Of a stretch of 56,503 nucleotides of DNA, positions 1,200-22,275 are shown one piece after another. The stretch lies in the IMG/VR virus record IMGVR_UViG_3300043568_003076, positions 1 to 56,503 of that record; one strand, given 5' to 3'. Under the pieces are notes generated by a model. That model saw nothing but the letters and a program-made list of their open reading frames with translations. It was not told where the DNA came from and ran no database searches. Source of the stretch: a virus. Position 1 is the first letter of the stretch. Each line of letters opens with the position of its first letter. The position numbers and the translations under genes are program-made.

Positions 1200-1553
1200 A
1201 TGAGATTAATTAAATTATTTGAACAATGGGTTTCTGAAGAAGAAAAGGCTGTAGATTCTCCTAAAGTTGAGGATACGGCTAAACCCAGCAATTCATATAA
1301 TCTTAAAGTATCATCAACTGACGCTGGAGATTTTGAAGTTACCGCAAATGCCGATTCAGAATTTACAACAGATTCAGCAAAATCGTTTAATGTAATTAGT
1401 TCAACTAATTCAAATATTAAATCGGGAGCAACTATTATGGTTTCTCCAAAGGCTGATAAAGCTGGAGATTTTGATATTATTGCAGTAAATGACAAAACTA
1501 AACCAGAAGAGTCATTAATTTATTCAGGAACAGTAGAAACAACTAAATCCTAA
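1200..1553 (+). CDS. Small protein with N-terminal capsid-targeting-like leader
   Basis: A 117-residue protein without a recognised domain. Its first 15 residues, MRLIKLFEQWVSEEE, follow the leader pattern shared by several proteins in this window (basic, aromatic at spaced positions, then hydrophobic-x-Glu). The rest is polar, rich in Ser/Thr/Asp, and predicted beta. It contains two similar pieces, AGDFEVTA (about 42-49) and AGDFDIIAV (about 88-96), suggesting an internal duplication. It is the last gene of the plus-strand unit that includes the tail tube and ends just before a strong hairpin terminator. I infer a late-expressed head-associated protein whose leader may be cleaved by a prohead protease; function is unknown. 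Confidence 0.62.
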   Translation: MRLIKLFEQWVSEEEKAVDSPKVEDTAKPSNSYNLKVSSTDAGDFEVTANADSEFTTDSAKSFNVISSTNSNIKSGATIMVSPKADKAGDFDIIAVNDKTKPEESLIYSGTVETTKS

Positions 1554-1576
1554 GTTTTAAAAGTATATTAAATTAG

Positions 1577-1601
1577 AAAGGGGATTTATTGCCCCTTTTT
1601 T
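1577..1601. terminator. Bidirectional intrinsic terminator
   Basis: A 7-bp perfect stem (aaagggg / cccctttt side) with an 8-base loop is followed by six T on the plus strand and preceded by A-rich sequence that serves the minus strand. It sits between the stop of the plus gene ending at 1553 and the stop (1586) of the convergent minus gene, whose last codons lie within the hairpin. Confidence 0.85.
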
Positions 1602-1987
1602 ATTGTGTCTACTCCAGCAAGGTCCCCAATCTCTAATTCTGAATCAATTAGATGTGGAACAAAGTCGATTGTTGTGTATGCAGTATTTAAGAACTTAACT
1701 GTATTGTTAATGTTACTTGCACTTAGTCCAGCATTAACATAAATTATTCGATTATATTTTCGATTTCTTACGTTAATAGCCTTATCTATTAATTTCTTAA
1801 TTTCGTAATTAATTAAGAATGACTGTATTTTGTTAGGAACTAGAATGTCCTGATCAAATTTTTCTTTAATGATTTTATTTACGTTTAGTAAGTAATCACA
1901 TTTTTGTTTTTTAATAAAAATTTGAATGAATTGTTTTTGATCCTTTACGAAAATTATTTCGAGAGTACGATCTACTGAATCTATCAT
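1586..1987 (-). CDS. Hypothetical protein
   Basis: A 133-residue protein I do not recognise. It is lysine/isoleucine-rich with a predicted alpha/beta pattern. Hydrophobic strands occur near residues 8-14, 82-88 (NRIIYVNAG) and 105-114, with no membrane segment and no metal-binding motif. Its start overlaps the stop of the dCMP deaminase gene by 4 bases, so it is translationally coupled as the last gene of a thymidylate-synthase-like / deaminase unit that ends at the terminator at 1577-1601. The position hints at nucleotide metabolism or early takeover, but nothing in the sequence shows it. Confidence 0.55.
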   Translation of the reverse strand: MIDSVDRTLEIIFVKDQKQFIQIFIKKQKCDYLLNVNKIIKEKFDQDILVPNKIQSFLINYEIKKLIDKAINVRNRKYNRIIYVNAGLSASNINNTVKFLNTAYTTIDFVPHLIDSELEIGDLAGVDTIKKGQ

Positions 1988-2439
1988 ATTGAATCATGGT
2001 CGATTTTTTTAACCTCAATTCCAGCACGACGTAAAAAATCTAAGCCATTTATATCTCGATATTCTTCAAGATATACAACTCGTTTAATACCTGATTGTAG
2101 AATTAATTTGCTACAGTCAGTACATGGGGAATAGGTAATATATAAGGTTGCACCATCACTACTTTGGGTAGATTTAGCGACTTTTGCTAATGCATTGGAT
2201 TCGGCATGTAAAACATACCATTTAGTTTTATATTCTTTAAAAGAACCATCTTCATTATTAATAGCTTCTTCACATTCATTTTCAAAACCAGAAGGAGTTC
2301 CATTAAACCCATCTGATATGATTGTATTATTTTTTACAATTAATGCACCAACTTTTTTTCTAGTTGCATGAGATAGCTCTGCCCAAACTTGGGCCATTTT
2401 AATGTAGGCTATATCTATTTTATGTTGCTTTTGATACAT
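1984..2439 (-). CDS. cd: dCMP deaminase
   Basis: Deaminates dCMP to dUMP, the feeder of dTMP synthesis, in the cytoplasm. The zinc-dependent cytidine/deoxycytidylate deaminase signature is complete: HAE at residues 78-80 (zinc ligand His and proton-shuttling Glu) and PCTDC at 105-109 (two Cys ligands). The GALIV strand at 31-35 and the NGTPSG segment at 46-51 also fit the dCMP deaminase subgroup. The length of 151 fits the usual 150-190. It is sandwiched between the thymidylate-synthase-like gene (2-base gap) and an unknown gene (4-base overlap). T4 gp-cd is the obvious counterpart. Confidence 0.93.
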   Translation of the reverse strand: MYQKQHKIDIAYIKMAQVWAELSHATRKKVGALIVKNNTIISDGFNGTPSGFENECEEAINNEDGSFKEYKTKWYVLHAESNALAKVAKSTQSSDGATLYITYSPCTDCSKLILQSGIKRVVYLEEYRDINGLDFLRRAGIEVKKIDHDSI

Positions 2440-2441
2440 TC

Positions 2442-3326
2442 TTATTTAGATTGAAAAGTTTTATCATATATCCATTTAAAAATATCTTCTCCATCTTGGA
2501 ATAGGATAATATCATTGGACTCTGAGGTGATTGCATTAAATAAGGTTTTAAAATCAGAGGTTTGACTGCCATCTATTTCAATTAAGTCTGATACGATTGG
2601 CGGTAGTGTTATTGAGGTAAATGGTTCAGCTAGCATTCTTGAAGCAAGGTCATAGTGTCTATCATAGACGTGATATGAATTTGCAACATGAGTATAGGTC
2701 CCTAATTCAAGATCTGGATAAAAATGCTTTAGATGAGATAAGATTTGCATTTGTAATGAACAAAAGAAGGCTACGTCGGTTGCAGTACCCCAGATTGCAT
2801 CATTACTTCTCATAAATACACTCATATAAAGTTTATTTTGTCTGATATGTAAATTTGCATACATTGTACAAACAAAATCTTTATTTGAAGAATATTGGTG
2901 TTTTGGTTTATTAAAGTGTAGTACGGCCTGTCTGGTATTCTGATCAGTTGCTAAGCTTTGAATTGCCCATTGGTATTGACTAATTGCGTGCTCATTTTTT
3001 TCAGTAAATATTAGGTTTCCATATGCTGAATTGACAGTTCCATCGATATTTTGAATTTCTTCCCAGAACTTTGCCCATTTTGAAATAAATGCTGAATCAT
3101 TACGGCCTGCATAATACCATAAAAACTCAGCCGCAATATATTTCTGCTGAGAACCTCTAACTGAATTTTCGTAAAGACACTGAGTTGGGTCTTCAATAAC
3201 TAGAGCAACATCTAGTAATTCTTTACTAGTCGTGCCTCGTGCATTATTAACAAGTCCATAAGTTAATAAAAACTTAATAGAATCACGATATGCATCAGCA
3301 AATGTTAAACCTTTAAATATTATCAT
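2442..3326 (-). CDS. Thymidylate-synthase-superfamily enzyme, dCMP-hydroxymethylase-like
   Basis: A folate-dependent pyrimidine C5-alkylating enzyme. The nucleophile is Cys153 in DFVCT, followed by MRSND (172-176) for phosphate binding and the S-Y-H-V-Y-D-R-H segment (217-224). Normal thymidylate synthases have P-C-H around the Cys and an Asn after G-x-P-F. Here the equivalent residue is Asp184 (WGTATD). T4 gp42 dCMP hydroxymethylase also has DF-x-CT, MRSND, this Asp (it selects dCMP over dUMP), and SLHVYSRH. The enzyme could therefore make 5-hydroxymethyl- or 5-methyl-dCMP rather than dTMP. However, such Asp variants also occur in divergent phage enzymes of uncertain substrate, and the adjacent dCMP deaminase would suit a plain thymidylate synthase. 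Length 294 is between gp42 (246) and longer synthases. Family is sure; substrate is not. Confidence 0.85.
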   Translation of the reverse strand: MIIFKGLTFADAYRDSIKFLLTYGLVNNARGTTSKELLDVALVIEDPTQCLYENSVRGSQQKYIAAEFLWYYAGRNDSAFISKWAKFWEEIQNIDGTVNSAYGNLIFTEKNEHAISQYQWAIQSLATDQNTRQAVLHFNKPKHQYSSNKDFVCTMYANLHIRQNKLYMSVFMRSNDAIWGTATDVAFFCSLQMQILSHLKHFYPDLELGTYTHVANSYHVYDRHYDLASRMLAEPFTSITLPPIVSDLIEIDGSQTSDFKTLFNAITSESNDIILFQDGEDIFKWIYDKTFQSK

Positions 3327-3386
3327 ATTGTTTGTTAATTTTAATCAAACTCACCGTTAGATCTTATTAATATACTATGAAAATGA

Positions 3387-3414
3387 AAAAGGGTTAACTT
3401 AGTTAAGCCCTTTT
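3387..3414 (-). terminator. Intrinsic terminator for the 13.6-3.4 kb minus-strand unit
   Basis: Read on the minus strand, AAAAGGGCTTAAC pairs with GTTAACCCTTTT around a short loop (one bulged base), followed by a T run. The stop codon of the 34-residue gene lies in the stem. It separates the replication/recombination block from the thymidylate-synthase-like gene, so the 70 bases downstream (3327-3386) should hold that gene's promoter. Confidence 0.7.
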
Positions 3415-3503
3415 GCCATTAGCAGTATGAGTCCAGCAAACCATATGAGTATTATTGTAATAACTGCAATGTCTTTGAATTTAGATTTTTTAGATTTTTT
3501 CAT
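3399..3503 (-). CDS. Small single-pass membrane protein (34 aa)
   Basis: A short reading frame that encodes a lysine-rich N-terminus (MKKSKKSKFKD) followed by one strongly hydrophobic helix of about 20 residues (roughly 13-32) and a short basic end. It fills an otherwise unexplained 190-base gap at the end of the 46/47 operon. It starts 12 bases after the stop of gene 46 and ends inside the terminator hairpin, as a genuine last gene would. The positive-inside rule predicts a cytoplasmic N-terminus. Function is unknown. Small membrane proteins at the end of phage early operons can act on the host envelope or division, but that is speculation. Confidence 0.55.
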   Translation of the reverse strand: MKKSKKSKFKDIAVITIILIWFAGLILLMAKGLN

Positions 3504-3514
3504 GGGTTTATGTA

Positions 3515-5176
3515 TTAAATGATGGTTAGGTCTGAGAAATGATCAGTATTTTCAACTTGGATTTTAGTATCAAAGTATTCTTCTGGCAATGGGTCATGTG
3601 AAATTACAAATACTGTCATATTATATTTCTTTGAAAACGTTTTAAGTAGATCAACTACTCTAAATATTGAGTCAACGTCTAATGACGAAAATACTTCGTC
3701 TAAGAAAAGAAGATTTACTTTATTATGCTTTAGTTTAATTAGTTCAAGAATACATAAAAGTACAATTAAATTCATTTTCTTTTGTTCTCCAGAAGATAAT
3801 GAGTCTGGCGAAACTTGCATACCTAAATGAGTAATGATTGGATTAAATTCTAAATCAAACTCAAATGCAAATTTGAATTCAAGCACCTTTGCTGTTTTTA
3901 AGATCTTTTTATTTAATAATGGAATAATTTGACTCATTAGCATACGCTTCATACCATTATCAGATAGGATCATTTCCATTTCTTGCGAAACTTTTAATTT
4001 TTCAGTTTGAATAGCTAGACTATTACCAGCTGTACCGATTTCAGTTTCAATATTTTTTATTACTTCAACTAGATGTTTATCTGACGTCTGTTTACCTTGT
4101 TGAGATAATTGTTGGATTTCTCTTTTTACTGTAGAGACTTGAGCGTCAATTTTATAAAATCTATCCTTTGCTTTATTTTGGTTTGACTCTATTGACGATA
4201 AGTCAAATTCATTACTCTTAATTGTTTGAGAAATATCAGGAATAGAGGACTCTTGCGATTCTTTTAATTTTAATAATTTGTCCTTGATTTGACTATGAAT
4301 TTCATCAGTTAAATCAGATAAACAATGAGGACATTTATTTTTATTGTAAAGATCAAGCTTCTTTTGTATTTCTGAAATATTTGCTCTAATTGTAGTTAAT
4401 TCATCACGTGATGTTCTAACCATTGTTTGTATTTTTGAAAGCTCTGTTGTAAAACTACCTGCTTCAATTCTAGCAGACTCTTTTAAATCAACTAATTTTT
4501 TTAATTCAATATTAAGCTCTTCAATTCTAGCAGTATTAGTTGCTTGAATTTCATTTTTTAAATTTTCAAGTTGATTAACTGATGATTCTAATAATCTTTG
4601 GTTACTTGCAATTGACGATTCAAGTGGAGTAATTTCGCCTTTAACGCGTTTAGTATCTTCTTTAGATATTTTAGACATGTCATTAACAATATCTAGTCCA
4701 AAAATCTTATCAATAATTTGACGTTTATCTGCTGGGCTTAATTTAACAAAACTTTTAAAGTCATTTACTGATAAGCTGATTGTGTTTGAGAATACATTAA
4801 ATGGTAATTTAGTTAATTCCTCTTCAATAAAATCGTCTACTCTTCGTTTATCTGGCAAATTATATTCAGCTCCATCAATTGAAAGCTTTGAGAAATTGGG
4901 TTCAAGACCACGCTCTATATCAATAAGTCTACCATTCCCTGTTGTAAATTTAATTTGGGTATAAGCATTCTTATTAATTCGGTTTGGGATTTCTTTAGTT
5001 TTACGAATTGCTGATTTTCCATAAATTGCAACAGTCAATGCATCAGAAATTGATGATTTACCACTGCCGTTTTTACCCTGAACCAAAATTAATCTAGGCT
5101 CATCAGTAAATTTAAAAGTCTGTAATTTATTGCCGTATGAGCAAATATTTCTAAAGGAAAATTCGTGTATCTTCAT
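3515..5176 (-). CDS. 46: Recombination/repair ATPase-nuclease large subunit, gp46 (Rad50/SbcC-like)
   Basis: ATPase partner of the gp47 nuclease. Together they resect DNA ends for recombination-dependent replication and host DNA breakdown. Walker A is GKNGSGKSS (34-42). Long coiled coils run about 180-280 and 295-400 around a zinc hook CPHC (282-285). The ABC signature is SSGEQKK (461-467), Walker B LLFLDE (489-494) and the switch His is in VISHD (524-528). Length 553 is near T4 gp46 (560). The ATG overlaps the stop of the upstream SET-like gene by one base (TAATG), so the 47 / SET-like / 46 genes are coupled. Confidence 0.95.
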   Translation of the reverse strand: MKIHEFSFRNICSYGNKLQTFKFTDEPRLILVQGKNGSGKSSISDALTVAIYGKSAIRKTKEIPNRINKNAYTQIKFTTGNGRLIDIERGLEPNFSKLSIDGAEYNLPDKRRVDDFIEEELTKLPFNVFSNTISLSVNDFKSFVKLSPADKRQIIDKIFGLDIVNDMSKISKEDTKRVKGEITPLESSIASNQRLLESSVNQLENLKNEIQATNTARIEELNIELKKLVDLKESARIEAGSFTTELSKIQTMVRTSRDELTTIRANISEIQKKLDLYNKNKCPHCLSDLTDEIHSQIKDKLLKLKESQESSIPDISQTIKSNEFDLSSIESNQNKAKDRFYKIDAQVSTVKREIQQLSQQGKQTSDKHLVEVIKNIETEIGTAGNSLAIQTEKLKVSQEMEMILSDNGMKRMLMSQIIPLLNKKILKTAKVLEFKFAFEFDLEFNPIITHLGMQVSPDSLSSGEQKKMNLIVLLCILELIKLKHNKVNLLFLDEVFSSLDVDSIFRVVDLLKTFSKKYNMTVFVISHDPLPEEYFDTKIQVENTDHFSDLTII

Positions 5177-5670
5177 TAATTTAAAAAATAGGTAAGTTCT
5201 TGATCTGGGTCAATATCTTGTACTGTATAGAATTTATATAGTTTTTTCTCAGAATCATAATCCCAATTGATATTAGGAGACGTGGATTTTCTGTAAATTG
5301 AGCCAAAGCCTAATAGGATTGCATGAGAATCGATATGCAACATTTTATTTGGATTGATTACATCATATACAATTGCTTTAAATTGCTCTGCTGAAATAAG
5401 ACCGCGATCTAGCCTCTCCTGTAAATTAAGATCTGCCAGTTTTTCAGCAATCTCGCGCTCTTTATTAAGACCGTCTGGATTAACAAACAGCCGGTTATCT
5501 AATACTTGATCGTGGTTTTTAAGTAAAAGTTGAGTTTTTTGGCTTATTGGAATCCATGCACAAAACTCAATGGTTGAATTTCTATAAATTTGAGCACTAC
5601 TAAATACGCCAAATTCTTTAGAATTTATAGGCTTTACATATAAACTAGATAGGATGCTTGGGTTACTCAT
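5176..5670 (-). CDS. SET-domain-like protein (putative lysine methyltransferase)
   Basis: A 164-residue protein with the landmarks of a minimal SET domain. An early G-V-F segment (21-23) follows a KPINSKEF stretch. A central LGFGSIYRKSTSPNINW region (120-136) is at the position of the family's R-F-x-N-H-x-x-x-P-N AdoMet-binding motif. The end, QDIDPDQELTYFLN (151-164), matches the I-x-x-G-E-E-L-x-x-x-Y motif. The NH of the NHS motif is replaced by RK and the usual terminal Tyr by Phe, so activity may be altered. The helical insert at 65-105 would be the iSET region. It lies between genes 47 (8-base overlap) and 46 (1-base overlap), an unusual place. A target among recombination proteins or host proteins is conceivable, but no substrate can be read from the sequence. 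Confidence 0.6.
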   Translation of the reverse strand: MSNPSILSSLYVKPINSKEFGVFSSAQIYRNSTIEFCAWIPISQKTQLLLKNHDQVLDNRLFVNPDGLNKEREIAEKLADLNLQERLDRGLISAEQFKAIVYDVINPNKMLHIDSHAILLGFGSIYRKSTSPNINWDYDSEKKLYKFYTVQDIDPDQELTYFLN

Positions 5671-6775
5671 CGGCTGATTGTTGTTTTACTAAATTATGAA
5701 TTTCTATAAATTTTTGAGCTAATTCAGTTTTAAAAGTTTGTGAATAGTCTTTTGTCTTTATGTAGCTTTTAAATATATCAATAACATTAAATTGATCTTC
5801 TGGATTAAAGTCAGTTGAGGTAGACTCATCTGTTACCTGATCGACATATGTAAAAAATTCAACTTTTCTATGAGTTGATTTTGAAATAAGTTCCAAAAAT
5901 CTAGTTACTGAGAATTTATTAACAAAATTTACACTAATCATAATATCAACAAATGAATTATTTAATTTTTCAATTACGTCATTTGCTGGCATTTCCAATA
6001 GTTCAAATATATCAAATTTCTTATAGACTGGAGATTGAGTATTTTCAATAAATTTCTCAGTTAATTTTTGAGAAGACACATCTAATTGATAAAAACCTTT
6101 AGTATTATCACGATCTCCTCTATCCATTTGGTATGGTGTTCCAGTATAGAGAACATTTTTAAATTCTTGACGATGATGAATATGGCCAGCATAAACACGT
6201 TTATAAGAAGATAACATATCTACTTCAATTCCATGTTCAACCTTTGTCCATTTATTAAAGCTAAGACCCTTAATGTCTGCATGACAAATAATATATTCAC
6301 ATAAATCTTTGTGGTCAGTTATTATTTGGTTTAAACGATTAGTGTCTTCAACCCAAGGTAACATTAAAAAGTTATGGGAACCGTTAATTGTAATAATTTC
6401 AGGATTTTCAAATACATGAATATTATCAGCAATATGTGAAATTGCTTTTAAAGAGTGAACAACGTTTCTATCTTTATAATAGACGTCATGGTTTCCAATA
6501 ATGATATAGATACCTCTTTTAAATTTCTCAGAAAGCTTTTTAAAAATAGTTAAGGCTTCATCGTGTACTCGAACATTAATTGATTCACGCGAATGAAATA
6601 CGTCGCCTTCTAAAAATAACACATCTCGGTCTTCATCAAAATCTTCATCTACTTTATTAATTAAAAAGTCCAATAGAAAATCCTTTTGTATTTGAATCCA
6701 TTCTATTGAATTATTTTTTATTCCTAAATGTAAATCACCAACTAGTGTTATTTTTCGAATATTTGTAAGCTTCAT
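5663..6775 (-). CDS. 47: Recombination nuclease small subunit, gp47 (Mre11/SbcD-like)
   Basis: Metal-dependent exo/endonuclease subunit of the 46/47 complex. The calcineurin-like phosphoesterase motifs are in order: DLHLG (14-18), EGDVFH (56-61), GNHD (94-97), CHAD (about 164-167) and GHIHH (197-201). The second motif has GDVF rather than GDxxD, as in several phage homologues. The C-terminal 150 residues would form the capping and gp46-binding region. Length 370 compares with 339 in T4. It begins one base beyond the stop of the upstream 223-residue gene and overlaps the SET-like gene by 8 bases. Confidence 0.94.
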   Translation of the reverse strand: MKLTNIRKITLVGDLHLGIKNNSIEWIQIQKDFLLDFLINKVDEDFDEDRDVLFLEGDVFHSRESINVRVHDEALTIFKKLSEKFKRGIYIIIGNHDVYYKDRNVVHSLKAISHIADNIHVFENPEIITINGSHNFLMLPWVEDTNRLNQIITDHKDLCEYIICHADIKGLSFNKWTKVEHGIEVDMLSSYKRVYAGHIHHRQEFKNVLYTGTPYQMDRGDRDNTKGFYQLDVSSQKLTEKFIENTQSPVYKKFDIFELLEMPANDVIEKLNNSFVDIMISVNFVNKFSVTRFLELISKSTHRKVEFFTYVDQVTDESTSTDFNPEDQFNVIDIFKSYIKTKDYSQTFKTELAQKFIEIHNLVKQQSADE

Positions 6776-6776
6776 T

Positions 6777-7448: not shown

Positions 7449-7464
7449 TTGTGTATTTGTATTT

Positions 7465-9000: not shown

Positions 9001-9006
9001 ATTTTT

Positions 9007-9345
9007 TTAATTCGAAATTATATAAAATTTTAAAAATTCAGATTGGTCAATTATTATAAATTCACCTTTCTTAATTAGGATATTGTCTTCTATTAAGTCT
9101 TTCATTAATAGTTTTAGTTTTTCTAAAAATTCAGCAGTTAGTTTATCTCCAAATACATATTTTAGAGTCTTTGTTGAAAACTTAATATCTTCTAGGTCAA
9201 ATTCTTTAGATTTGACTTGAGTAACTTTGACAATGTATGACAGGATATCGAATACAAAGTCTTGCCTAGTTGGATAGCTAGGCAAGGCTGTATGCGACTC
9301 TAGTAAGTATTTAAGAGGAATATTTGGCTGTAATTTAAAGGTCAT
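9007..9345 (-). CDS. Hypothetical protein between UvsX and helicase 41
   Basis: A 112-residue protein with alternating predicted helices and a C-terminal strand pair (LIKKGEFIII), compatible with a winged-helix-type fold, but I recognise no family. Its start overlaps the end of uvsX by 11 bases and it ends 6 bases before gene 41, so the three are coupled. In T4 the same slot holds gene 40 (114 residues, a head-vertex assembly factor). Size and place agree but I see no sequence similarity, so orthology is not claimed. Confidence 0.55.
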   Translation of the reverse strand: MTFKLQPNIPLKYLLESHTALPSYPTRQDFVFDILSYIVKVTQVKSKEFDLEDIKFSTKTLKYVFGDKLTAEFLEKLKLLMKDLIEDNILIKKGEFIIIDQSEFLKFYIISN

Positions 9346-13799: not shown

Positions 13800-16700
13800 A
13801 TGGCAGAAAAATTAAATCTGAACAGATACAAGTCAAGCGGTGTCTACACAGTAGAAATTGATGAGAGCACTAACCTTTCATTACCTCTTTCAACTGGAAG
13901 ATTGGTAATTGGCTCAAGTAAAAAAGGACCGATCAATTCAGTAGTACTAGTTAATGACTTACGTACTTTATCGGCAGTCTATGGCGATATTGACTCTAAA
14001 TTAGAAAAAAATGGTAATTATTTCCACAGAACTATTCAGGTAGCACTAAGAAATGGCCCAGTTTATGCACTAAATTTATTGCCAATTGCTGATTCAGATG
14101 TTGCATATTTTACAACATTTAATACAGAAGCAGCTTCAAATAACTCAACATGGTCTGCTAGTTCGTATCAAAGCAGCATAGCTGATTTCTATAATACTCA
14201 AAAATTATGGTTTGCTGATGTTGACGCTGTTAACAAATATAAAAACTTAGCACTAGGCGATTCTTTTCCAGCAACTGGAACAGTTGATAGAGATGCTAAC
14301 AAATTATTAAGTTTAGTTAACTTATCTAAGAAGCCAGTTACCTCATGGGCTAGAATAGCTGATACTACTGGTTATGACATTAAAGTTAAAGAATATTATA
14401 AATTACTTGGTGATAAGGTTGAAGTTCCTGATTTCTTACACCCTGATGATTATGTTGCTGACTATTTTGTAGAACTTTCAGTAGTTGAAGGAGACTGGTC
14501 AGATTCTATTAGATTGTCAAAAGACCCAATTTATCAACAGTATTTTAATGAAAGCGGTATCATTTTAGCAAAAATGAACGATTTTTTATCGTTAAAAGAA
14601 GTTACAGTAGTTAACCGTACAATTGGAGCAATTATTCCAGAATTTACAGACCTAGCCGGATCGCCAGCATCATTAGACTATTTGTTTAATAATAAATTTT
14701 CTCAATCTGGAGTTTATTGTGCTCTTGACTATAAGAAAATTGATATGATTGATTTAGCAAACAATCCAGTATTTGATAGCGGTAGCGCATCCGAAAGTAT
14801 TGAATCACAACGATTGGATTTAGTAGGTTACGGCTTTGACGAAATGGATTCAGCTGTTTATTCAGTAGATAGCGGTAATCCTGATTTATCTATTGCACCA
14901 GTTAAATTAATTGATGTATTAAGTTACAGAAAAACTGCTGGTTACGAATATTATTTTAATATTTCAACAACCGCGCCTGATAACTTTGAGATTTTACCGG
15001 GTGCGGCACTTAGCCTTGGTGAAATGTACACAGTTAACCCAGTTGGTTCTAACAATAATTATATTATTGCAACAATCAATAGCCCACTATATAATGCATG
15101 GGCAAATGGATTTATTAAAACTGGAGATACTTTACTTACAGGATCTACTGCATACTTATCAACTGATGGAGTAGTTAAAACGGTTATGAATGGCTTAGCT
15201 AAAATTAGTTATATTGAGTTTTATGCATATAGCGATTTAACTTATACTAATCAAGTTGATGCAGCAACAATCACTAGCGGATCTAATCAATATTTGCATA
15301 TTAAGTCAGCTGAAGTTACTGAATTTAACTTTGACTTTGACTTAACTGATACTGACTATTTTAGATCAGGTTTTAGTTATTTTGCTCCTAACCGATTAGT
15401 ATTTACACTAACTCCAACTCTTTATGGAAATCCAGCAAAGAAAGAAATAGCAAATGGAAATGCAGTATATGATGCAGTTAAGAGAAGTAAAATTGAAAAC
15501 TTTATTAAAACTGGTCAATATATTAAAGCTGGAATACTTACAGACGGTGACGGTGACCCAGTTATTCGTGAACGTTTATTAAGGATTAAAACTGTTTATG
15601 CAAAAAAAGTAAGTGTTACTTATATAGGAGCTCCTACTAATACGTTAGAGTATACAATCACAGTAGATTCTCCACTAGATGCAAATATAACTGGTATTGA
15701 TCTTACTGGTTCAATATTAAAAACGTATAAAGGAATTAAAAATTATGTAACGGACCTTAGAGGTTTTTATGTACCTGCAATATCACTTGATGAAGTTGGT
15801 TTATATCCTAATGGAACCTCTGCTCGTCAAGATAAGATCCTTGATTATATGTTTGAGAATACTAATATTGCATCAACTATTGCAGATAATGAGACCTTAA
15901 ATTTCCGATATATTATCGATTCATTTGAAGGTCAAATTGCACCTGCTTCTAAACAGCAACTTGCACAACTTGCAGCAAATCACGGAAAAGCACTAGCTAT
16001 CTGTAATGCTCCATCTTTTGCTCAATATGAAAAATCAATCGACCCAAGCTTTATTGATTTTAATACTAACTTAGTATCAACTGAGTATATTTCAACCGGT
16101 GGTAATCTATCTTCAAATCCTCAATTTACATTTGGATTTGCAAGTGGAGATAAGAATGGTATTGCAATTGCATCTTACGCTGCATACTTTATGCCTAACT
16201 TAGTAATATTTGACAACGGTCGAAGTAAATCAATTCCACCTGCTGCATATATTGCAAATACATATATGAAAAAATATACAGGCGGAAATACTTTCTCAAT
16301 TGTTGCAGGTAAGCGCGGTATTATTACTGAGCCAGAAGTAACTGGACTAGAATATGATTTAACTAATGACGATAGAGATTATTTAGAACCAGTAGGTTTT
16401 AATATGATCGTTAGACGTAGAGGTTTCGGAGTAATGATTTTCTCAAATAACACAGGTTATCAAAGAGTAAAATCTGCACTTAATAACATCCACGTTAGAG
16501 AGGCATTGGTAACAATTGAAAAAGATATTGAAAGAATCTTATTGAATTACCTATTTGAATTTAACGATCCAACTACTAGACTAAGAGTTAAAACATTAGT
16601 TAAAAACTACTTAGAAGCAGTTCAAGACGCTAGAGGTATTGCAACATTTGATGTAATATTTGATGATTCAAATAATGGTTCTGAGGTTCTTGAAAATAAC

Positions 16701-16826
16701 GCTGGTGTAATTGATATTATTGTTGATTTCCCAAGAGGTATTCAAAAGTTCATCAACCGTATTACAATCACAAGAGCTGGAGGCCAATTAGCTTCTGCTT
16801 CTACTGGATTTACGCCTTCATTCTAA
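13800..16826 (+). CDS. 18: Tail sheath protein, gp18-like
   Basis: Contractile sheath subunit that surrounds the tail tube. The N-terminal part (SSGVYTVEID, then GRLVIGSSKKGPIN) and the conserved C-terminal domain (about 780-1000) match the phage sheath family. That domain runs from GKRGIITEPEVTG through GFGVMIFSN, the hydrophobic EKDIERILLNYLFEFN helix and GVIDIIVDFPRGIQKFINRI. At 1008 residues it is much longer than T4 gp18 (659). The extra length is in the central, surface-exposed domains (about 230-650). It is the first gene behind two late-promoter-like elements and is followed 19 bases later by a small leader-bearing gene. Confidence 0.93.
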   Translation: MAEKLNLNRYKSSGVYTVEIDESTNLSLPLSTGRLVIGSSKKGPINSVVLVNDLRTLSAVYGDIDSKLEKNGNYFHRTIQVALRNGPVYALNLLPIADSDVAYFTTFNTEAASNNSTWSASSYQSSIADFYNTQKLWFADVDAVNKYKNLALGDSFPATGTVDRDANKLLSLVNLSKKPVTSWARIADTTGYDIKVKEYYKLLGDKVEVPDFLHPDDYVADYFVELSVVEGDWSDSIRLSKDPIYQQYFNESGIILAKMNDFLSLKEVTVVNRTIGAIIPEFTDLAGSPASLDYLFNNKFSQSGVYCALDYKKIDMIDLANNPVFDSGSASESIESQRLDLVGYGFDEMDSAVYSVDSGNPDLSIAPVKLIDVLSYRKTAGYEYYFNISTTAPDNFEILPGAALSLGEMYTVNPVGSNNNYIIATINSPLYNAWANGFIKTGDTLLTGSTAYLSTDGVVKTVMNGLAKISYIEFYAYSDLTYTNQVDAATITSGSNQYLHIKSAEVTEFNFDFDLTDTDYFRSGFSYFAPNRLVFTLTPTLYGNPAKKEIANGNAVYDAVKRSKIENFIKTGQYIKAGILTDGDGDPVIRERLLRIKTVYAKKVSVTYIGAPTNTLEYTITVDSPLDANITGIDLTGSILKTYKGIKNYVTDLRGFYVPAISLDEVGLYPNGTSARQDKILDYMFENTNIASTIADNETLNFRYIIDSFEGQIAPASKQQLAQLAANHGKALAICNAPSFAQYEKSIDPSFIDFNTNLVSTEYISTGGNLSSNPQFTFGFASGDKNGIAIASYAAYFMPNLVIFDNGRSKSIPPAAYIANTYMKKYTGGNTFSIVAGKRGIITEPEVTGLEYDLTNDDRDYLEPVGFNMIVRRRGFGVMIFSNNTGYQRVKSALNNIHVREALVTIEKDIERILLNYLFEFNDPTTRLRVKTLVKNYLEAVQDARGIATFDVIFDDSNNGSEVLENNAGVIDIIVDFPRGIQKFINRITITRAGGQLASASTGFTPSF

Positions 16827-16845
16827 TTAACAAAATACAAAAACT

Positions 16846-17133
16846 ATGAAAAGATACATATCTCTATTTGAAAATTTTAATGACGATGTTCAATATATGG
16901 TAAAACCAGTAGGTGATTCCTTTAGAATATTTGCTAAAACACCTAAGATGAAAGCAGACGGTAGTGAATATGAAGATTGTGAATCTTTATTCGGTAAAGG
17001 TACAATGTGGAAAGATTATGATAGTCACAGTAGCGCTAAAACCGCTATTGACAGTATGTCAAATATGAGTCACAGTATGAGTAAACCAAGTGGTGGTAAA
17101 CCTCACGGACCTAGTGACTATTTTGCTGATTAA
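16846..17133 (+). CDS. Small protein with capsid-targeting-like leader
   Basis: A 95-residue protein beginning MKRYISLFENFNDD, which matches the shared leader pattern (basic, aromatic, L-F-E). A small beta segment follows at about 16-50, and then a Ser/Met/Gly/His-rich tail (65-90) that is probably disordered. No domain recognised. It is co-transcribed with the sheath and ends 20 bases before a strong terminator. The leader contains L-F-E, fitting the T4 prohead protease rule (L/I-x-E), so cleavage at about residue 9 is plausible. Likely a late virion-associated protein, by inference. Confidence 0.6.
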   Translation: MKRYISLFENFNDDVQYMVKPVGDSFRIFAKTPKMKADGSEYEDCESLFGKGTMWKDYDSHSSAKTAIDSMSNMSHSMSKPSGGKPHGPSDYFAD

Positions 17134-17153
17134 TTAAAAAGTTTAATACAAAT

Positions 17154-17182
17154 AAAAAGGACCTCAATTGAGGTCCTTTTTT
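17154..17182. terminator. Strong bidirectional terminator
   Basis: A perfect 12-bp palindromic stem (aaaaaggacctc / gaggtccttttt) with an AATT loop and T runs on both strands. It ends the sheath unit from the left and the HAD/GroES minus-strand unit from the right. Confidence 0.92.
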
Positions 17183-17236
17183 GTTTAGGGCCGACAGGAT
17201 ATGTCAGATTCCACCACTTGGTTTAAGTCCAAGAAC
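17183..17236. other. GC-rich structured element of unknown role
   Basis: Fifty-four bases between the terminator and the stop of the HAD gene, visibly richer in G+C than the surroundings (about half). It contains two small hairpins: gaca/tgtc, and cttgg/ccaag with a 7-base loop. The second looks like a tRNA T-arm (loop tttaagt), but no acceptor stem or anticodon arm can be completed. It would be the 3' end of the minus-strand transcript. It could be a 3' UTR structure, a small RNA or a tRNA remnant. Confidence 0.35.
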
Positions 17237-17809
17237 TTAGTCTTCAGGTTCCATAATACCTTCAAGAACTCTAATTGAGTCGGTTGAGTCATTATGTAAA
17301 ATACCAGTTCCGCCAGCGTCAGTCCATTTATTTAGCTTAGTATCAAAATCATCAATTAAAATGTCAAATTTATCTCTGGCATATTTCCATTTGTCTTGAT
17401 CTAAAATTATTCTGGTTTTACTTGTAAAATCTTCAGGTTTAGTAACAGGTTCTTCATCAATATGCAGATGTAGTTTAATCCATTTTGCTTTACCTGCTAA
17501 ACATTCAGCACTTCTACTCGGAGCAGATAGGATAATTGGATCATATTGTTTTAAATAGTCCCATAATTCTCTACCGTCTTGCGTCCAAGGTAAATCTGCC
17601 CAAAAATCTTCTCCTAATTTATCTAGGATTGGCCAAATTGAATTTTTACCGTGGAGCTCTTCATATGCATGTGGTGAAAGTTTTTCAGGATTTTCTGAAA
17701 TTTCAGTAAAGCCTCGGTTAAAGTCTACTAGGACACCGTCTAAATCACAGAAAATTGTGTATTTTCCGCCTCTTTTTTCAAAGATAAATTGTTTAAATTT
17801 TTTAAGCAT
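17237..17809 (-). CDS. HAD-family 5'(3')-deoxyribonucleotidase-like phosphatase with capsid-targeting-like leader
   Basis: A HAD-fold phosphatase probably acting on nucleotides. The core motif CDLDGVLVDF holds the nucleophile Asp22 and acid/base Asp24. Motif II is the LSAPS strand (about 94-98) and the acidic motif is ILIDDF (about 147-152). I take the ATG at 17809 as start (190 residues). A TTG at 17824 would add five residues. From 17809 the protein begins MLKKFKQFIFE, almost the same as the peptidase at 21694 (MIKRFSQFIFE). This leader precedes the HAD core and is not part of the fold. It overlaps the groES stop by 8 bases. Either it is targeted into the head or the leader has another shared role. 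A late-type AATAAATAAA lies within the end of groES (about 17841-17850), 32 bases upstream. Confidence 0.78.
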   Translation of the reverse strand: MLKKFKQFIFEKRGGKYTIFCDLDGVLVDFNRGFTEISENPEKLSPHAYEELHGKNSIWPILDKLGEDFWADLPWTQDGRELWDYLKQYDPIILSAPSRSAECLAGKAKWIKLHLHIDEEPVTKPEDFTSKTRIILDQDKWKYARDKFDILIDDFDTKLNKWTDAGGTGILHNDSTDSIRVLEGIMEPED

Positions 17810-18134
17810 TTTCTTTAAGTTCAAATTGTGTATCTTGATCTTTATTTATTATGGCTAAAAGATCGTTAGCTATTACCAAATGATATCCGATACCATCCCA
17901 AGTTACATCAAGCCCTGAATATCTTTGATATAAAACTTTATCTCCAGCTTTAACTGGACATTTTGAATTATCTGGAACAGAGTGGCCAACTGCAATTACT
18001 GTTCCTGTATTTGGGCGCTTGCGTGCATCAACTGATAAAATAATACCAGTTTCAGTTTTTTTCTCTACTGTATCTGGTAAAATTAGAAGTCTTTCAAATA
18101 GTGGCATAAAGCCTTTTGTTATATCAATGCTCAT
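17802..18134 (-). CDS. groES: GroES-like co-chaperonin
   Basis: Lid of the GroEL folding chamber. The family pattern is clear along its 110 residues: a PLFERLLILP first strand, a mobile loop at about 22-36 with the GIIL contact (30-33) corresponding to the GroEL-binding I-V-L of GroES, GTVIAVG (44-50), PVKAGDKVLYQRYSG (61-75) and the terminal LLAIINK. T4 uses the unrelated-looking gp31 for this job. Here the co-chaperonin is of bacterial GroES type and a full GroEL is encoded 12 kb upstream on the same strand. The ATG overlaps the end of the 5' nuclease gene by one base. Confidence 0.93.
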   Translation of the reverse strand: MSIDITKGFMPLFERLLILPDTVEKKTETGIILSVDARKRPNTGTVIAVGHSVPDNSKCPVKAGDKVLYQRYSGLDVTWDGIGYHLVIANDLLAIINKDQDTQFELKENA

Positions 18135-19246
18135 TAGTATTTATAATTTTTTTTAAATTTGTAATAATTGAATTTACGGCGCACGGTTAAGTCCACGCTT
18201 GCTTTTATTGCATCCAATACATCAGTTGGAAAAAGCTTTGTACTTAATCTTACTAATGTCTTATTACGATGGATGTTATTCTCGATCGTCTGCCATTCAC
18301 CAGGTTCCTTTATCTTTAGAGTATCACATGTTATTTCACGCATTACATCAAGGAACCCAGAATCACCTGAATCGATTAGGTCTTTAACATCAGACCACTC
18401 ATATGATTCTCTAACGTACTCTATTATTTTAGATACTTTAGAAGCAGTCATTTTTGGATGAACTCTTGGAATATTATCTGAACTATCACCAGCTAAACAC
18501 TTTGTTAAAATATCTAGGGTTGGATCAATAGTTAAGTGCTGGTAGTCTTTTTGAGTTAAGTCATTTATTATATTAATAACAGCTGAGTTGTCAATTGCCT
18601 CAATATCAAAATCAAATAGATTAACTTCTGCTGGAGTTTCGTCTTTACCAAAATCAGCAGTAGTATAGATCTTTTTATACTTGGTCATTTGCTTTGGCAT
18701 AATTAAGATAACTTTACGCTTATTACTTTCAAGTAATTGAGTTAGGTCTTTATCTACCGACCATATACAAATGTCCTCATTTAGATTTTCGCAAATGTAA
18801 GCAATTAAGTCATCGCCTTCTGCTCCAGGTACTCGATTGACTACAACTCCATATTCATCTGAGATTATATTGAGTATTTCATTTTGAAAGTATTCAAAAA
18901 ATAGATAAATTTTGTCATCATATTTTCTTTGACCTTTATAATTAAAGTCTCCTTCTCCATGTGTTTCAAAATGCTCCTTAATATATTTTTTTCTCCAACT
19001 CTTAGAGTCAAATACAAAAAATACAGATTGGATATTTTCTTTAAATGGAGCAAGAATACTTCCAAAATAATTTGTTGAAAATGATTTAAACGAATCTTTA
19101 CTACCCTGTTTAAGAATAAATTTATCATCGTTTAATAAATCAGCAACGTAATACTTTTCACCAATTCTCTTATCGTTTGCAAGAATGTTTTTAACAATAC
19201 TTACTGCCACGTTTAAAAAAGCATTTCCGTCTATGATTAGATTCAT
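18134..19246 (-). CDS. rnh: 5'-3' exonuclease / RNase H, T4 Rnh (FEN)-like
   Basis: Structure-specific 5' nuclease that removes RNA primers and flaps at the lagging strand. Metal-binding motifs of the FEN family are present: DGNAF (6-10), FDSKSWRKKY (about 78-87), the GAEGDDLIAY helix (about 140-149), SVDKDLTQLL and the H3TH entrance CLAGDSSDNIPRV. Length 370 is somewhat more than T4 Rnh (305). The extra part is mostly in 180-230 and at the basic C-terminus (RRKFNYYKFKKNYKY). It sits between SSB-region genes and groES. Confidence 0.9.
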   Translation of the reverse strand: MNLIIDGNAFLNVAVSIVKNILANDKRIGEKYYVADLLNDDKFILKQGSKDSFKSFSTNYFGSILAPFKENIQSVFFVFDSKSWRKKYIKEHFETHGEGDFNYKGQRKYDDKIYLFFEYFQNEILNIISDEYGVVVNRVPGAEGDDLIAYICENLNEDICIWSVDKDLTQLLESNKRKVILIMPKQMTKYKKIYTTADFGKDETPAEVNLFDFDIEAIDNSAVINIINDLTQKDYQHLTIDPTLDILTKCLAGDSSDNIPRVHPKMTASKVSKIIEYVRESYEWSDVKDLIDSGDSGFLDVMREITCDTLKIKEPGEWQTIENNIHRNKTLVRLSTKLFPTDVLDAIKASVDLTVRRKFNYYKFKKNYKY

Positions 19247-19252
19247 TTTATT

Positions 19253-19531
19253 TTAATTAGTGGGTTGTTTAGGAACTTGTAGTTTCTTTATTGCTTTTAC
19301 AATAAGCTCAGATTCTTCTAGTGTAAATATTCCTTTAGCTTGGCAATGATTAGCTGAGGCTATTAGAATAAGTACTGCATGTTCTGGAGTTAAATTTACC
19401 AAAAAGTTTTCATAATCTTCAAGATTACTATAACTAATTGAAGAAAGTAGAGTAGCTATTGGAGCAGCCTCAGGTTGATTTGCGTCAACCTGAGGAGCTT
19501 CAACTACTGGTGGTGTTTTTGATTTTGCCAT
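19253..19531 (-). CDS. Hypothetical small protein
   Basis: A 92-residue protein with a Pro/Ala/Gln-rich N-terminus (1-28) and a helical second half containing NLTPEHAVLILIASANHC and FTLEESELIVKAIKKL. No family recognised. It lies between the SSB gene (19-base gap) and the 5' nuclease (6-base gap), so a replication accessory role is possible by context only. Confidence 0.55.
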   Translation of the reverse strand: MAKSKTPPVVEAPQVDANQPEAAPIATLLSSISYSNLEDYENFLVNLTPEHAVLILIASANHCQAKGIFTLEESELIVKAIKKLQVPKQPTN

Positions 19532-19550
19532 TTTGTAGTTTAATTATTTT

Positions 19551-20603
19551 TTATAAAGATGCAAATAAATCGTCTAAATCATCTGCTTTTGGGGCAGCTG
19601 CTTTAGCGGTAGGTTTAACTTCAGGTGCTGGAGCAGAGATTTCAAAGTCATCATCTAAATTAATTGATGAACTTACATTTTTTACTGCTGGAGCTGGAGT
19701 GAATTCAATATCTTCTCCAAGTGGTGCTTGTGTTCTAGCCACTGGCGCAGATAATTTAAAATGTTTTTTCATTCTTTCATCTTTAGTATTTGCAACTAAA
19801 TTGTCAATGATTTGTTTGTAAGGAATAATTGCTTTAATATAGTCAGCAACTTTTTCGTATTCAACATCAGTCCATTCCTTTAAGAAATATTGACTCATAT
19901 CTGGTGAATTCTTTTTAAAGTATTCACTTACAAACTGCATAACCTTAGGTTCAGTAGAAACTGGAATTTCTTTACCTTGAGTTGAGATAATTAATGGGCT
20001 AACTTCATTCATGAATTTACTAGCACTAAAATCTCTCCATGCTTTAGTCTTACGCTTAATAACCAAAACAAAATCTTTACCAGTAGTAAGTGAGAATGGA
20101 TTGATTTTTTGAGTAGTAACTAATTCCTGCTCAGGATTAATTTCTTGTTGGATTAGGTTATCAATTGTATATCCATACGAATATATTTTGATTTTACCTT
20201 CCATTGTAGGAAATTGTGGATCCTTCTTGATATAAACGCAAGAATAGTAATTGTAGTAACGATTAAAATACTTTTGAATCTCTTCAACAATAGTAGGCTC
20301 TTCATTTTTTAATCGCTTTAATTCAAGATCAAGCGTCCAAAGAATTGATGATGCTCCTGTCGTTGATGGACAATCTACATACAACTTTTCGTTGGTTAAA
20401 GGGTTTATTAATTTAGCTGCATATTTTTTATAGCGGCTCTTAGTTGGATCGGTTACCCAAGGGATAAAACGAATAACTGATTTGTAAATACCGTTTTGAC
20501 CTTGGTCTGGACCGGGATTGTACATGTTGTCGTCGACTTTGCGACCAGCGGATGATGATTTACCTGAGAAATCATCGAGATTAAGATTGAATAGATCTTC
20601 CAT
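19551..20603 (-). CDS. 32: Single-stranded DNA-binding protein, gp32-like
   Basis: Coats ssDNA at forks and in recombination. The central OB-fold region (about 40-230) has the gp32-type pattern: VIRFIPWVTDPTKSRYKKYAAKLINP, then VDCPSTTGASSILW, YYNYYSCVYIKKDPQFP and GKIKIYSYGYTIDNLI. The C-terminus is a Pro/Ala linker ending in an acidic tip, DDLDDLFASL, as in SSBs that recruit partners. The T4 protein binds zinc with H-x-C-x-C-x-x-C. Here only two well-separated Cys remain in this region, so the zinc site is probably lost. Length 350 compares with 301 in T4. Its promoter should lie between the terminator at 20662 and the start. Confidence 0.85.
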   Translation of the reverse strand: MEDLFNLNLDDFSGKSSSAGRKVDDNMYNPGPDQGQNGIYKSVIRFIPWVTDPTKSRYKKYAAKLINPLTNEKLYVDCPSTTGASSILWTLDLELKRLKNEEPTIVEEIQKYFNRYYNYYSCVYIKKDPQFPTMEGKIKIYSYGYTIDNLIQQEINPEQELVTTQKINPFSLTTGKDFVLVIKRKTKAWRDFSASKFMNEVSPLIISTQGKEIPVSTEPKVMQFVSEYFKKNSPDMSQYFLKEWTDVEYEKVADYIKAIIPYKQIIDNLVANTKDERMKKHFKLSAPVARTQAPLGEDIEFTPAPAVKNVSSSINLDDDFEISAPAPEVKPTAKAAAPKADDLDDLFASL

Positions 20604-20661
20604 ATTGTTTATAATGTTTAATAATTTAATAGAATTGTACTAAAGAAATGTGAAGAGTTTT

Positions 20662-20695
20662 GAAAAAAAAAGGACGAGTTGTAAAACCCGTCCTT
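20662..20695 (-). terminator. Intrinsic terminator after the Hc1-like gene
   Basis: On the minus strand, AAGGACG pairs with CGTCCTT around a 12-base loop, followed by eight or nine T. It separates the Hc1-like gene from the SSB gene. Confidence 0.85.
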
Positions 20696-20722
20696 AAATG
20701 TGAACTTTTTGTCTAATAAAAA

Positions 20723-20914
20723 TTAGGCTTTAGTATCAACTTTAGATTCTTGAACGTGAGTTCGGCCTTCTTGACAAAGAGCTTTAATGTCTTGAAGAAC
20801 TTTACGAGTTCTAGTTCCAGCTGATTTATTTCCTTTTTCGTAGAATTTTCCAGCTTCTGCTTCTAATTGAGAAACTTGTTCCTTTAGCGATGTTAACCAT
20901 GTAGGTGTTGTCAT
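20723..20914 (-). CDS. Hc1-like (histone H1-like) small basic protein
   Basis: A 63-residue helical protein with the core EKGNKSAGTRTRKVLQDIKALC (about 26-47). This is the signature of the small Hc1/histone-H1-like proteins common in Bacteroidetes (GNKAAGTRARKxLQ-type). Such proteins bind DNA and are thought to compact the nucleoid. The N-terminal third (WLTSLKEQVSQLEAEAGKFY) is a likely coiled-coil helix. It has its own terminator and lies just beyond the leader-bearing peptidase gene. It could be acquired from the host or act on phage or host DNA packing. The family call is fairly firm; the role in the phage is not known. Confidence 0.8.
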   Translation of the reverse strand: MTTPTWLTSLKEQVSQLEAEAGKFYEKGNKSAGTRTRKVLQDIKALCQEGRTHVQESKVDTKA

Positions 20915-20968
20915 AATTTCAAATATTTTTTGTATCTTATATTTGAGAAATCCACCCGGTTTTAAATA

Positions 20969-21694
20969 TTAGTGATATTTGTTTGAAAATTTAGCTACTG
21001 GGTATACTTTTTTAGCAAAATCTATCCAAGTTTTCATAACCTTGTCAGCTTCAGATTGAGAAATTACATTAGTCTCAATGAATGGCTGTAAATATTCTGT
21101 AAATTCCTGGTCAAGAGGTATTCGCTTCTTTTTAGCTGATGCATACATACCGGCAACCATTGCTGGAATTTCGTCAGATAATAAAAAGTAGTTATAATTA
21201 TTTTGAGCACGGGTTCTGACTGCTTTTGGGGTATTAACAATATGTCCAGTCTTTTTATTTATGCCTTTTTGTAAAAGGTGCTCAAGTTCATGTCGTATAT
21301 TGTCAATTAACTTATAATTTAATTCCGGATAACATTGAGGCTCTGCCTCTGGGCTAATATAGAGAATTATTTCAATTTCAGGTGATTCAGGCTCGTTTTC
21401 CTTTGGGATAAATGAATTTGCATCTATTGCAAAACCTTTATTTTCAAAATTAATTACCTCCCAAGGAAGTCTACTAAAATATTTAGATTTAGCTGGCTCA
21501 AATTCTTTAACTCTAGCTAGTTTAATTGATAGAGTAAATTCAAGTGGATTATCATATTCAAATTCTTTAGATATTTCTTTACCAAGCTTGGAACCAGCAG
21601 TTTTCTTAATTACACCAAATAAGTCTTTAGCAAAAACTGAGGCAAGTGAATCATATTTTGATTCAAATATAAATTGCGAAAACCTTTTTATCAT
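20969..21694 (-). CDS. Putative zinc metallopeptidase (HExxH) with capsid-targeting-like leader
   Basis: A 241-residue protein whose residues 135-139 read HELEH within NIRHELEHLLQKG. This is the gluzincin/metzincin-type helix in which the two His bind zinc and Glu is the base. A third ligand could be Glu175 in LLSDEIPAMVAGMY. The preceding strand IEIILYISPEAE (107-118) suits the edge strand of a zincin fold. It begins MIKRFSQFIFES, the shared leader, with I-F-E matching the T4 prohead protease rule. No signal peptide or membrane segment. Its start overlaps the end of the proline-rich leader gene by 4 bases, so both share the late-type promoter at 22295. I infer a virion-packaged peptidase; catalysis is unproven. 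Confidence 0.65.
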   Translation of the reverse strand: MIKRFSQFIFESKYDSLASVFAKDLFGVIKKTAGSKLGKEISKEFEYDNPLEFTLSIKLARVKEFEPAKSKYFSRLPWEVINFENKGFAIDANSFIPKENEPESPEIEIILYISPEAEPQCYPELNYKLIDNIRHELEHLLQKGINKKTGHIVNTPKAVRTRAQNNYNYFLLSDEIPAMVAGMYASAKKKRIPLDQEFTEYLQPFIETNVISQSEADKVMKTWIDFAKKVYPVAKFSNKYH

Positions 21695-22275
21695 TTTTTA
21701 GATTTAATAAAATTTACGTCTAATTTATTGGTTGAAGGTGATAATTTAGAATCAAACTCTATATCAATATCACCTTTGTCAATACCTAGTTTTTTAGCAG
21801 CCATTGCAGATTTTAGTTTATCATAAACTTCTTTATCTAAAAATCCTTTACCCCTAAGGGCATCAACTATATCAGTTTTCTTTGAATCTAATTGGCTATC
21901 GGTGATCCATTTATCTAAATCAGCTTGCTTAAGTTGATATTCTTTATAACGTTTAACTCCTCCGCCTCCAGTATAGTTAGAATGCCATTTTTTATCATCA
22001 TCTACCAATACAATATTAATATCGCCAGTTTGACCAGCGGTTGGAGCTGGTGCATTTGGGTCTGGTGGTAATTCAGCAGTTGCAAATGGATCAGTTGAAG
22101 GTGGCGTCATTGATGTTGTTGGATCCGGTGAACTTACTGGAGCTGGTGCATTTTCATCAGGCAATGGAGCAGCCTCAGTCTCAGTAGACGAAGGTGGCTC
22201 AACTGGTGGTGGAATAGGAGTAGGTTCATCTGCTTCTAATAATAGCTTAAATTGGTTAAAGTTTAGGATTTCCAT
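21691..22275 (-). CDS. Proline-rich protein with capsid-targeting-like leader
   Basis: A 194-residue protein in three parts. The leader MEILNFNQFKLLLEAD (1-16) ends in L-L-E|A, a good match to a T4-type prohead protease site. A Pro/Ala/Ser/Thr-rich disordered linker follows (17-82), then a charged alpha/beta domain (84-194) with a GGGG turn at 103-106 and a helical KQADLDKWITDSQLDSKKTD segment. No known family. It is the first gene of a two-gene unit with the HExxH protein, directly behind a TATAAATAAC element, and so probably late-expressed although surrounded by early genes. A head-internal protein is the best guess. Confidence 0.62.
   Translation of the reverse strand: MEILNFNQFKLLLEADEPTPIPPPVEPPSSTETEAAPLPDENAPAPVSSPDPTTSMTPPSTDPFATAELPPDPNAPAPTAGQTGDINIVLVDDDKKWHSNYTGGGGVKRYKEYQLKQADLDKWITDSQLDSKKTDIVDALRGKGFLDKEVYDKLKSAMAAKKLGIDKGDIDIEFDSKLSPSTNKLDVNFIKSKK

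Follow-up and report, generated by a model that had tools for sequence, protein, structure and literature searches.

For the T4 internal protein IPIII, whose sequence begins MKTYQEFIAEA, residues 4 and 7 matter for targeting and residues 8 and 10 for processing, according to the available portion of the published account (PMC9026906). The subject here is a set of similar short N-terminal leaders encoded in a 56.5-kb virus record (IMG/VR IMGVR_UViG_3300043568_003076; the whole stretch of 56,503 nucleotides is called the window below), which carries tail and replication genes of T4-superfamily type. A preliminary description of this DNA held that five genes, named here by their start positions as 1200, 16846, 17809, 21694 and 22275, open with one and the same basic pattern resembling the T4 capsid-targeting leader, and all five genes are confirmed with the N-termini then quoted. 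For three of them (1200, 17809 and 21694), we think it probable that the leaders are this phage lineage's dialect of the T4 capsid-targeting propeptide, and put the probability at about 0.77. We favor this reading because of the motif itself, its enrichment at N-termini, the protease encoded by relatives, the unrelated bodies that bear the leader and the annotation of internal capsid proteins in phage PAU.

From the IPIII start we derived a strict pattern, [FYW]..[FYW][ILVM].E, scored at residues 2-14 of each open reading frame (ORF) after mechanical gene calling in all genomes, with the expectation taken from the internal rate. Three of the 43 window ORFs match (1200, 17809 and 21694) where 0.13 would be expected (p 3e-4), a count that is not blind because the residue classes were picked after the window leaders had been viewed, so that other genomes provide the only blind test. 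Near relatives are five IMG/VR records chosen by their copy of the 21694 protein (79-100% identity): G001 (81.7 kb), G002 (84 kb), G003 (87 kb), G004 (116 kb) and G005 (38.7 kb). The pattern opens 7 of 118 ORFs in G004 (0.84 expected), 5 of 85 in G002 (0.75) and 4 of 74 in G003 (0.37), with 2 of 48 and 4 of 41 in the smaller G001 and G005. The two huge phage genomes give far larger numbers, 22 of 677 ORFs in the 462-kb LR756500 (2.5 expected, p 6e-14) and 58 of 1026 in the 735-kb LR756501 (L140-L176; 4.4 expected, p 1e-43). Across related phages, where the preliminary description proposed to look for it, the leader is thus enriched in G004, LR756500 and LR756501. The reversed motif, counted as a control, is absent from the window, G004, LR756500 and T4, and occurs twice in phage immuto and three times each in LR756501 and Lak.

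T4 itself has 4 matches among 266 ORFs (0.95 expected), including the annotated ipII and ipIII; the other two are the hypothetical gp61.1 and a frame that matches upstream of the annotated gp61.4 start. The gp61.1 sequence (NC_000866, 18966-19130) starts MKTFKEFIKED, resembling the capsid-targeting peptide, and gp61.1 may be an unrecognised head protein.

A profile trained on LR756500 and T4 alone places 21694 first in the window, with none of 17,138 internal positions scoring as high, and 17809 second, with a single internal position as high. That position is the copy IKRFEQFVNE inside the protein encoded at 546, which the preliminary description had already pointed out; it is real, and its score of 13.4 is the highest of any internal position in the window. 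Gene 1200 comes third, weakly (11 internal positions as high, 0.41 expected), and nearly ties with an unrelated gene at 18134-19246. Neither 16846, in seventh place with 53 internal positions as high, nor 22275, beyond the top 16, is significant in this profile. The IPIII spacing is present in three of the five named genes, and 16846 and 22275 do not fit it strictly, having looser forms only; we do not class these two as members of the T4-type set and keep them as weaker candidates.

A further sample, selected independently of the leaders, consists of 80 viral loci, the best 80 of 569 from a search with the protease alignment (A3); since they contain close relatives, p-values from them overstate independence. 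Leaders open 63 of their 1188 other ORFs (5.3 expected), and 37 of the 80 loci have at least one. These loci bear on the notion that the leaders reflect chance or a gene-family effect, through duplicated genes or mechanical choice of starts. When bodies are clustered (first 22 residues removed, single linkage, E 1e-3), 35 of 364 families have a leader-bearing member against about 1.6, a rough expectation that counts one ORF per family. Elsewhere the leader bodies form 3 families in the window, 7 in G004, 16 in LR756500 (22 ORFs) and 38 in LR756501 (58 ORFs), where one single-linkage cluster holds 100 ORFs, so paralogues do contribute. Start choice matters too, as the gp61.4 match illustrates, and the idea gains something from the two named genes that are not significant and from the mostly identical codons of the 17809 and 21694 leaders. 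With 35 leader-bearing families remaining after clustering and reversed-motif counts of 0-3 in all genomes counted, we rate chance or gene-family descent as the least probable of the explanations considered here.

The leader is common to otherwise unrelated proteins, which is the mark of a T4-type capsid-targeting sequence. In G004, a cluster at L017:3749-11917 has leader or leader-like starts on three bodies: a phage lysozyme, a MoxR-like ATPase and a DUF2201 metallopeptidase, the start of the metallopeptidase being a looser one. The gene next in line has no leader and resembles the VWA portion of an LR756500 protein. Homologues of this cluster lie in LR756500, whose DUF2201-VWA homologue carries a strict leader; leader bodies there include LRR, DUF2201-VWA and PNK 3'-phosphatase proteins, and beyond these plus one more, four of the eight scanned have no Pfam family. 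Among 57 of the 58 leader proteins of LR756501 that were scanned, 28 families appear, each matched by one member, with PPK2, a methyltransferase, a DeoC-type aldolase and radical SAM among the matches listed. Not every homologue of a given body has the leader: the DUF2201 protein bears it strictly in LR756500, more loosely in G004 and not at all in LR756501, whose MoxR homologue is leaderless as well. Homologues of the window's nucleotidase (17809) start directly at the catalytic domain, leaderless, in Atu_ph07 and Cr30, and have N-terminal extensions in immuto, HTVC008M and Melnitz; the phiM5 protein is longer.

A gp21-type protease had been anticipated outside the window, and it is found in three of the five near relatives: the prohead protease family PF03420 is over cut-off in G002, G003 and G004 and was not found in G001 and G005, both fragments. 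Of seven named phages, six have it, five of them over cut-off; LR756501 falls below the cut-off and MaF61 shows none. A homologue, L178, matches phrog_207 (E 1.7e-37), and the best Foldseek match of its model is T4 gp21 (5JBL, E 2.9e-9), so that by profile and by fold the protease of the relatives is a member of peptidase family S77. The likeness to the T4 leader first proposed for the window is well supported by the spacing, by the unrelated bodies and by a gp21-type protease in three of the near relatives.

In G002-G004 the protease is 662 residues long, and 14-residue repeats such as YSDYLAEKVEKNIQ and YSEYIAENVEKTVE follow the protease domain in tandem, with 8, 5 and 8 strict signature matches, respectively; most of the repeats bear the signature. 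Pattern-free self-comparison gives lag-14 identities of 0.47 in G004, 0.49 in LR756501 and 0.22 in LR756500, and no lag-14 peak in Lak or pT24; the repeat consensus is I-x-Y-S-E-Y-L/I-A-E-N-L-D-K. A complete fusion ORF was recognised in 66 of the 80 loci. Downstream of the protease SSR motif, 532 signatures were counted over 35,839 residues, or 1 in 67, against a background of 1 in 2936 (by arithmetic, a chance match of ~0.5% per 14-residue unit), and 360 of 468 successive signature pairs are spaced by exactly 14. The L178 model (predicted template modelling score 0.31) is confident for the protease core and for a helical domain at the C-terminus, with the repeats predicted as long helices at low confidence (predicted local distance difference test, pLDDT, about 40-46). 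We infer that the repeat domain serves as the scaffold, because of its place and because no separate scaffold was recognised; some database records already label the S77 protein "prohead core scaffolding protein and protease". In the gene order of G004, 3.7 kb lies between the end of the protease gene and the tail tube gene downstream of it.

If the repeat domain is the scaffold, that scaffold may amount to a tandem array of the targeting signal, and each cargo leader to one repeat detached from the array and joining it through mimicry, an idea that we hold tentatively, at odds somewhat short of even. One protease cutting after glutamates would then free the cargo and dissolve the scaffold together, and in YQEFIAE of T4 one such repeat would survive as a relic. 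A profile trained on 292 distinct scaffold units alone puts T4 ipIII and ipII at the top, with one internal position as high. Applied to the window, this profile ranks gene 41092 (start MAADKSSLSDYLAE) first and 21694 second; 17809 and 1200 are not significant.

On the capsid-targeting reading, the aromatic pair would dock the protein onto the scaffold core during prohead assembly, the S77 (gp21-type) protease would cut after the glutamate of aliphatic-x-E and shred the scaffold, and the mature protein would stay in the head, from which it may reach the host along with the DNA. Alternatively, the leader could be a mere protease cut site on core or shell precursors, with no part in targeting. 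The aliphatic-x-E ending, which the scaffold repeats share, does agree with the T4 gp21 sites LIE, ITE and LTE in the available portions of the published accounts (PMC9026906, PMC5694885). The cut region of the T4 capsid protein, FGSFLTE-AEIG, even bears the full signature. In 61 capsid sequences (58 from the loci plus G004, T4 and immuto), however, only two position-predicted cut sites (T4 and L187) have an aromatic at P4, a comparison in which only neighbouring residues are informative because the position rule always selects [ILVM]xE. Of these sites, that of T4 is known rather than predicted. Cutting is thus probably independent of the aromatic pair, and the T4 residues that match the aromatics matter for targeting (PMC9026906, available portion). 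A leader that is a cut site and nothing else therefore strikes us as unlikely.

Other phages appear to use variant forms. In pT24 the first position may be aliphatic or aromatic (15 matches, 3.6 expected), and in immuto FDLKKFLVEN or FNLRSFLTEN stands near the start of four proteins (loose pattern 6, 2.0 expected). The PAU form is MKT-I/L-xx-LYE, often followed by KLNEA; L[YF]E lies at residues 2-14 of 22 of 291 PAU ORFs (2.7 expected) and the longer form in 7 (0.36 expected). With the search confined to residues 4-10, L[YF]E is found in the window at 1200 and 16846 (2 against 0.09 expected, p 0.0035), in four genes of G004 (0.35 expected) and in 12 of Lak-B2 (2.9 expected). Because 1200 and 16846 match this form and 22275 has a third, ILNFNxF followed by LLLEA and held in common with a G004 gene at 7457, the single pattern of the preliminary description resolves into two or three related ones. 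In Lak-B2 (L112-L139), LYES or LYEN lies within the first 14 residues of nine ORFs, seven of which continue to K/S-L/I-N-E some 24-27 residues in; these starts are a possible Lak dialect. Lak-B2, with two strict leaders and no scaffold repeats, had been considered as a clean negative control, which its LYES/LYEN ORFs rule out, and the proposal that leaders are restricted to phages with repeat scaffolds was dropped after these forms came to light.

The link to heads outside T4 runs mainly through PAU, where five proteins (gp70, gp142, gp154, gp199 and gp270) are annotated as "internal capsid protein" and four of the five have the PAU-form start; gp199 has LYE and lacks the KLNE that follows. 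The annotated scaffolding protein gp152 starts in the same way. The PAU capsid protein has 585 residues and a mature length of 520 by N-terminal sequencing, according to the available portion of the source (PMC5646251); in the sequence ALME-NYQ, cutting behind L-M-E would give 521 residues, one off the published value. It could still be that the N-terminal leader directs its proteins elsewhere, to the membrane, the tail or a replication compartment, and has nothing to do with heads, given that the roles of its lysozyme, MoxR and PPK2 bearers are not obviously head-suited and that the window's best scaffold-repeat match, 41092, is a tail-region gene. Three further huge phages, whose fusions have 11 signature matches each, likewise show 0, 2 and 1 leaders across the ~42 kb that surround the fusion, with about 20 kb covered on each side of the protease (0.2-0.27 expected), and the single leader of the third vanishes under table 15. 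Such a signal would hardly account for leader enrichment in loci picked by a head protease, nor for a signature that scaffold repeats share with IPII and IPIII of T4, nor for its tie to the PAU annotations, and we consider it very improbable.

Several observations nonetheless weigh against the capsid-targeting reading or some part of it. The strict pattern shows no enrichment in MaF61 (0 of 192 ORFs), pT24 (0 of 300), PAU (0 of 291), immuto (2 of 223, 0.7 expected) or Lak-B2 (2 of 630, 2.07 expected), and the dialects of pT24, immuto, PAU and Lak were recognised post hoc. PAU gp70 and the "internal capsid vertex" proteins gp1 and gp10 have no leader, which makes the tally four of seven if vertex proteins are counted; the PAU annotations could, moreover, partly stem from the shared start itself. 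PF03420 was not found in the window, also a fragment. Seven of eight codons are identical at identical residues of the 17809 and 21694 leaders, which leaves room for DNA copying between them. Conservation of the N-terminus over the body is only weakly higher in leader genes (mean excess 0.095; 11 comparisons, 4 genes) than in controls (0.017; 79 comparisons, 27 genes), the nucleotidase shows no such excess, and the control gene 10577 shows as much as the leaders do. The leaders are basic, as first described; the proteins bearing them are, as a class, not clearly so (median net charge, p 0.80, 0.051 and 0.40, the second being LR756500, more positive). As for mimicry, leaders of the window lineage are F-rich and the scaffold repeats Y-rich (479 and 503 of 532), with differences elsewhere too, and leader forms also exist in several lineages that lack repeat scaffolds; since PAU, pT24 and immuto have such forms and no repeats in the scaffold proteins examined, mimicry is weakened as a general rule.

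Within the window (Table 1), the likeliest head proteins, judging from sequence, are the nucleotidase, the HExxH protein (21694) and the 1200 protein. Two enzymes had been proposed: the nucleotidase is supported by its profile match, and its start is an ATG within a longer TTG-started frame (17237-17824). The second is zinc-peptidase-like by its HExxH motif only; residues 119-223 are 30% identical to part of a Flavobacterium phage protein, there is no Pfam match, a sequence search of the PDB gave nothing below E 0.09, and the structure model is too uncertain for a fold search (mean pLDDT 56). In three relatives the first 14 residues of this protein are identical and the body 78-86% identical. 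The 1200 leader is identical at 13 of 14 positions in relatives, with bodies 60% (G002) and 78% (G004) identical, and no counterpart was found in G003; gene 16846 is present in G001 and G005, and no counterpart was found in G002, G003 or G004. The 546 protein is 92-97% identical in G002-G004, although tblastn confirmed no relatives in viral contigs, and it probably belongs to the prohead core, with a cut site inside the protein. Together with some of the small leader proteins, it may be a degraded core component rather than cargo.

Table 1. Window genes with leaders or leader-like starts and the genes beside them
Feature	Coordinates	Strand	Leader or related start	Match
Tail tube gene, cut off by window start	18..527	+		phrog_45
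216-residue acidic-tailed protein adjoining tail tube gene	546..1196	+	internal copy IKRFEQFVNE, residues 105-114 (858-887)	top internal score
117-residue protein, function unassigned	1200..1553	+	MRLIKLFEQWVSE (1200-1238)	strict signature FEQWVSE
95-residue protein behind tail sheath gene	16846..17133	+	leader-like start MKRYISLFENFND	L[YF]E form only
190-residue HAD-type 5'-3' deoxyribonucleotidase	17237..17809	-	MLKKFKQFIFE (17777-17809)	phrog_2643, E 1.9e-23; strict signature FKQFIFE
241-residue protein, HELEH motif	20969..21694	-	MIKRFSQFIFE (21662-21694)	strict signature FSQFIFE
194-residue proline-rich protein	21691..22275	-	looser leader MEILNFNQFKLLLE (22234-22275)	strict signature not matched

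A megablast search of the first 25 kb of the window against 50,697 phage records returned zero matches. Among the best 20 of 806 records that match its tail sheath, the sheath is closest to huge uncultured phages, Lak phages, Flavobacterium phage MaF61 and Tenacibaculum phage pT24. Three other window genes are of note in their own right. A small histone H1-like Hc1 gene (20723-20914; PF07432, E 5.8e-18) adjoins the leader gene pair, and its own start is without a leader. A GroEL-like protein, read from the sequence, is encoded at 30712-32292 and GroES at 17802-18134 (PF00166). The gene at 41092-44727 encodes a large tail-region protein.

A likely scaffold that repeats the targeting signature would offer a simple, testable recognition rule. 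From sequence alone, the signature predicts possible head cargo, enzymes included, amounting in the 735-kb phage to the 58 candidate ORFs counted above. That one signature extends to tens of proteins, and to a domain resembling a scaffold, goes beyond what the preliminary description had seen, and is the source of interest here; were mimicry true, it would be how the largest known phages bring tens of different proteins into their heads. The literature searched, as far as its text was available, contained no description of this leader in huge phages, nor of a protease-fused repeat scaffold.

The nearest known counterpart is the T4 set of IPI, IPII and IPIII with gp21: there, too, a short N-terminal peptide stands on unrelated proteins, an S77 protease is encoded (here in the relatives), and IPII and IPIII show the same aromatic-x-x-aromatic-aliphatic-x-Glu spacing. 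Where T4 has YQEFIAE, however, the window has F.QFIFE, and the bearers include enzymes and number tens of ORFs in related phages; and whereas T4 gp22 is a separate scaffold with no signature match, the likely scaffold here consists of 14-residue repeats joined to the protease in one protein. In phiKZ and SPN3US, head proteins are likewise cut after glutamate by a diverged gp21 relative, but the propeptides are much longer than those of T4, several exceeding 100 residues, with S/A/G-x-E or A-x-E as the motif, according to the available portion of the source (PMC5694885); the leaders described here measure 11-14 residues and end in aliphatic-x-E. For DarB of phage P1, the N-terminal 30 residues are enough to send a reporter into the head, as the accessible part of that report has it (PMC9024508), whereas here one common signature recurs.

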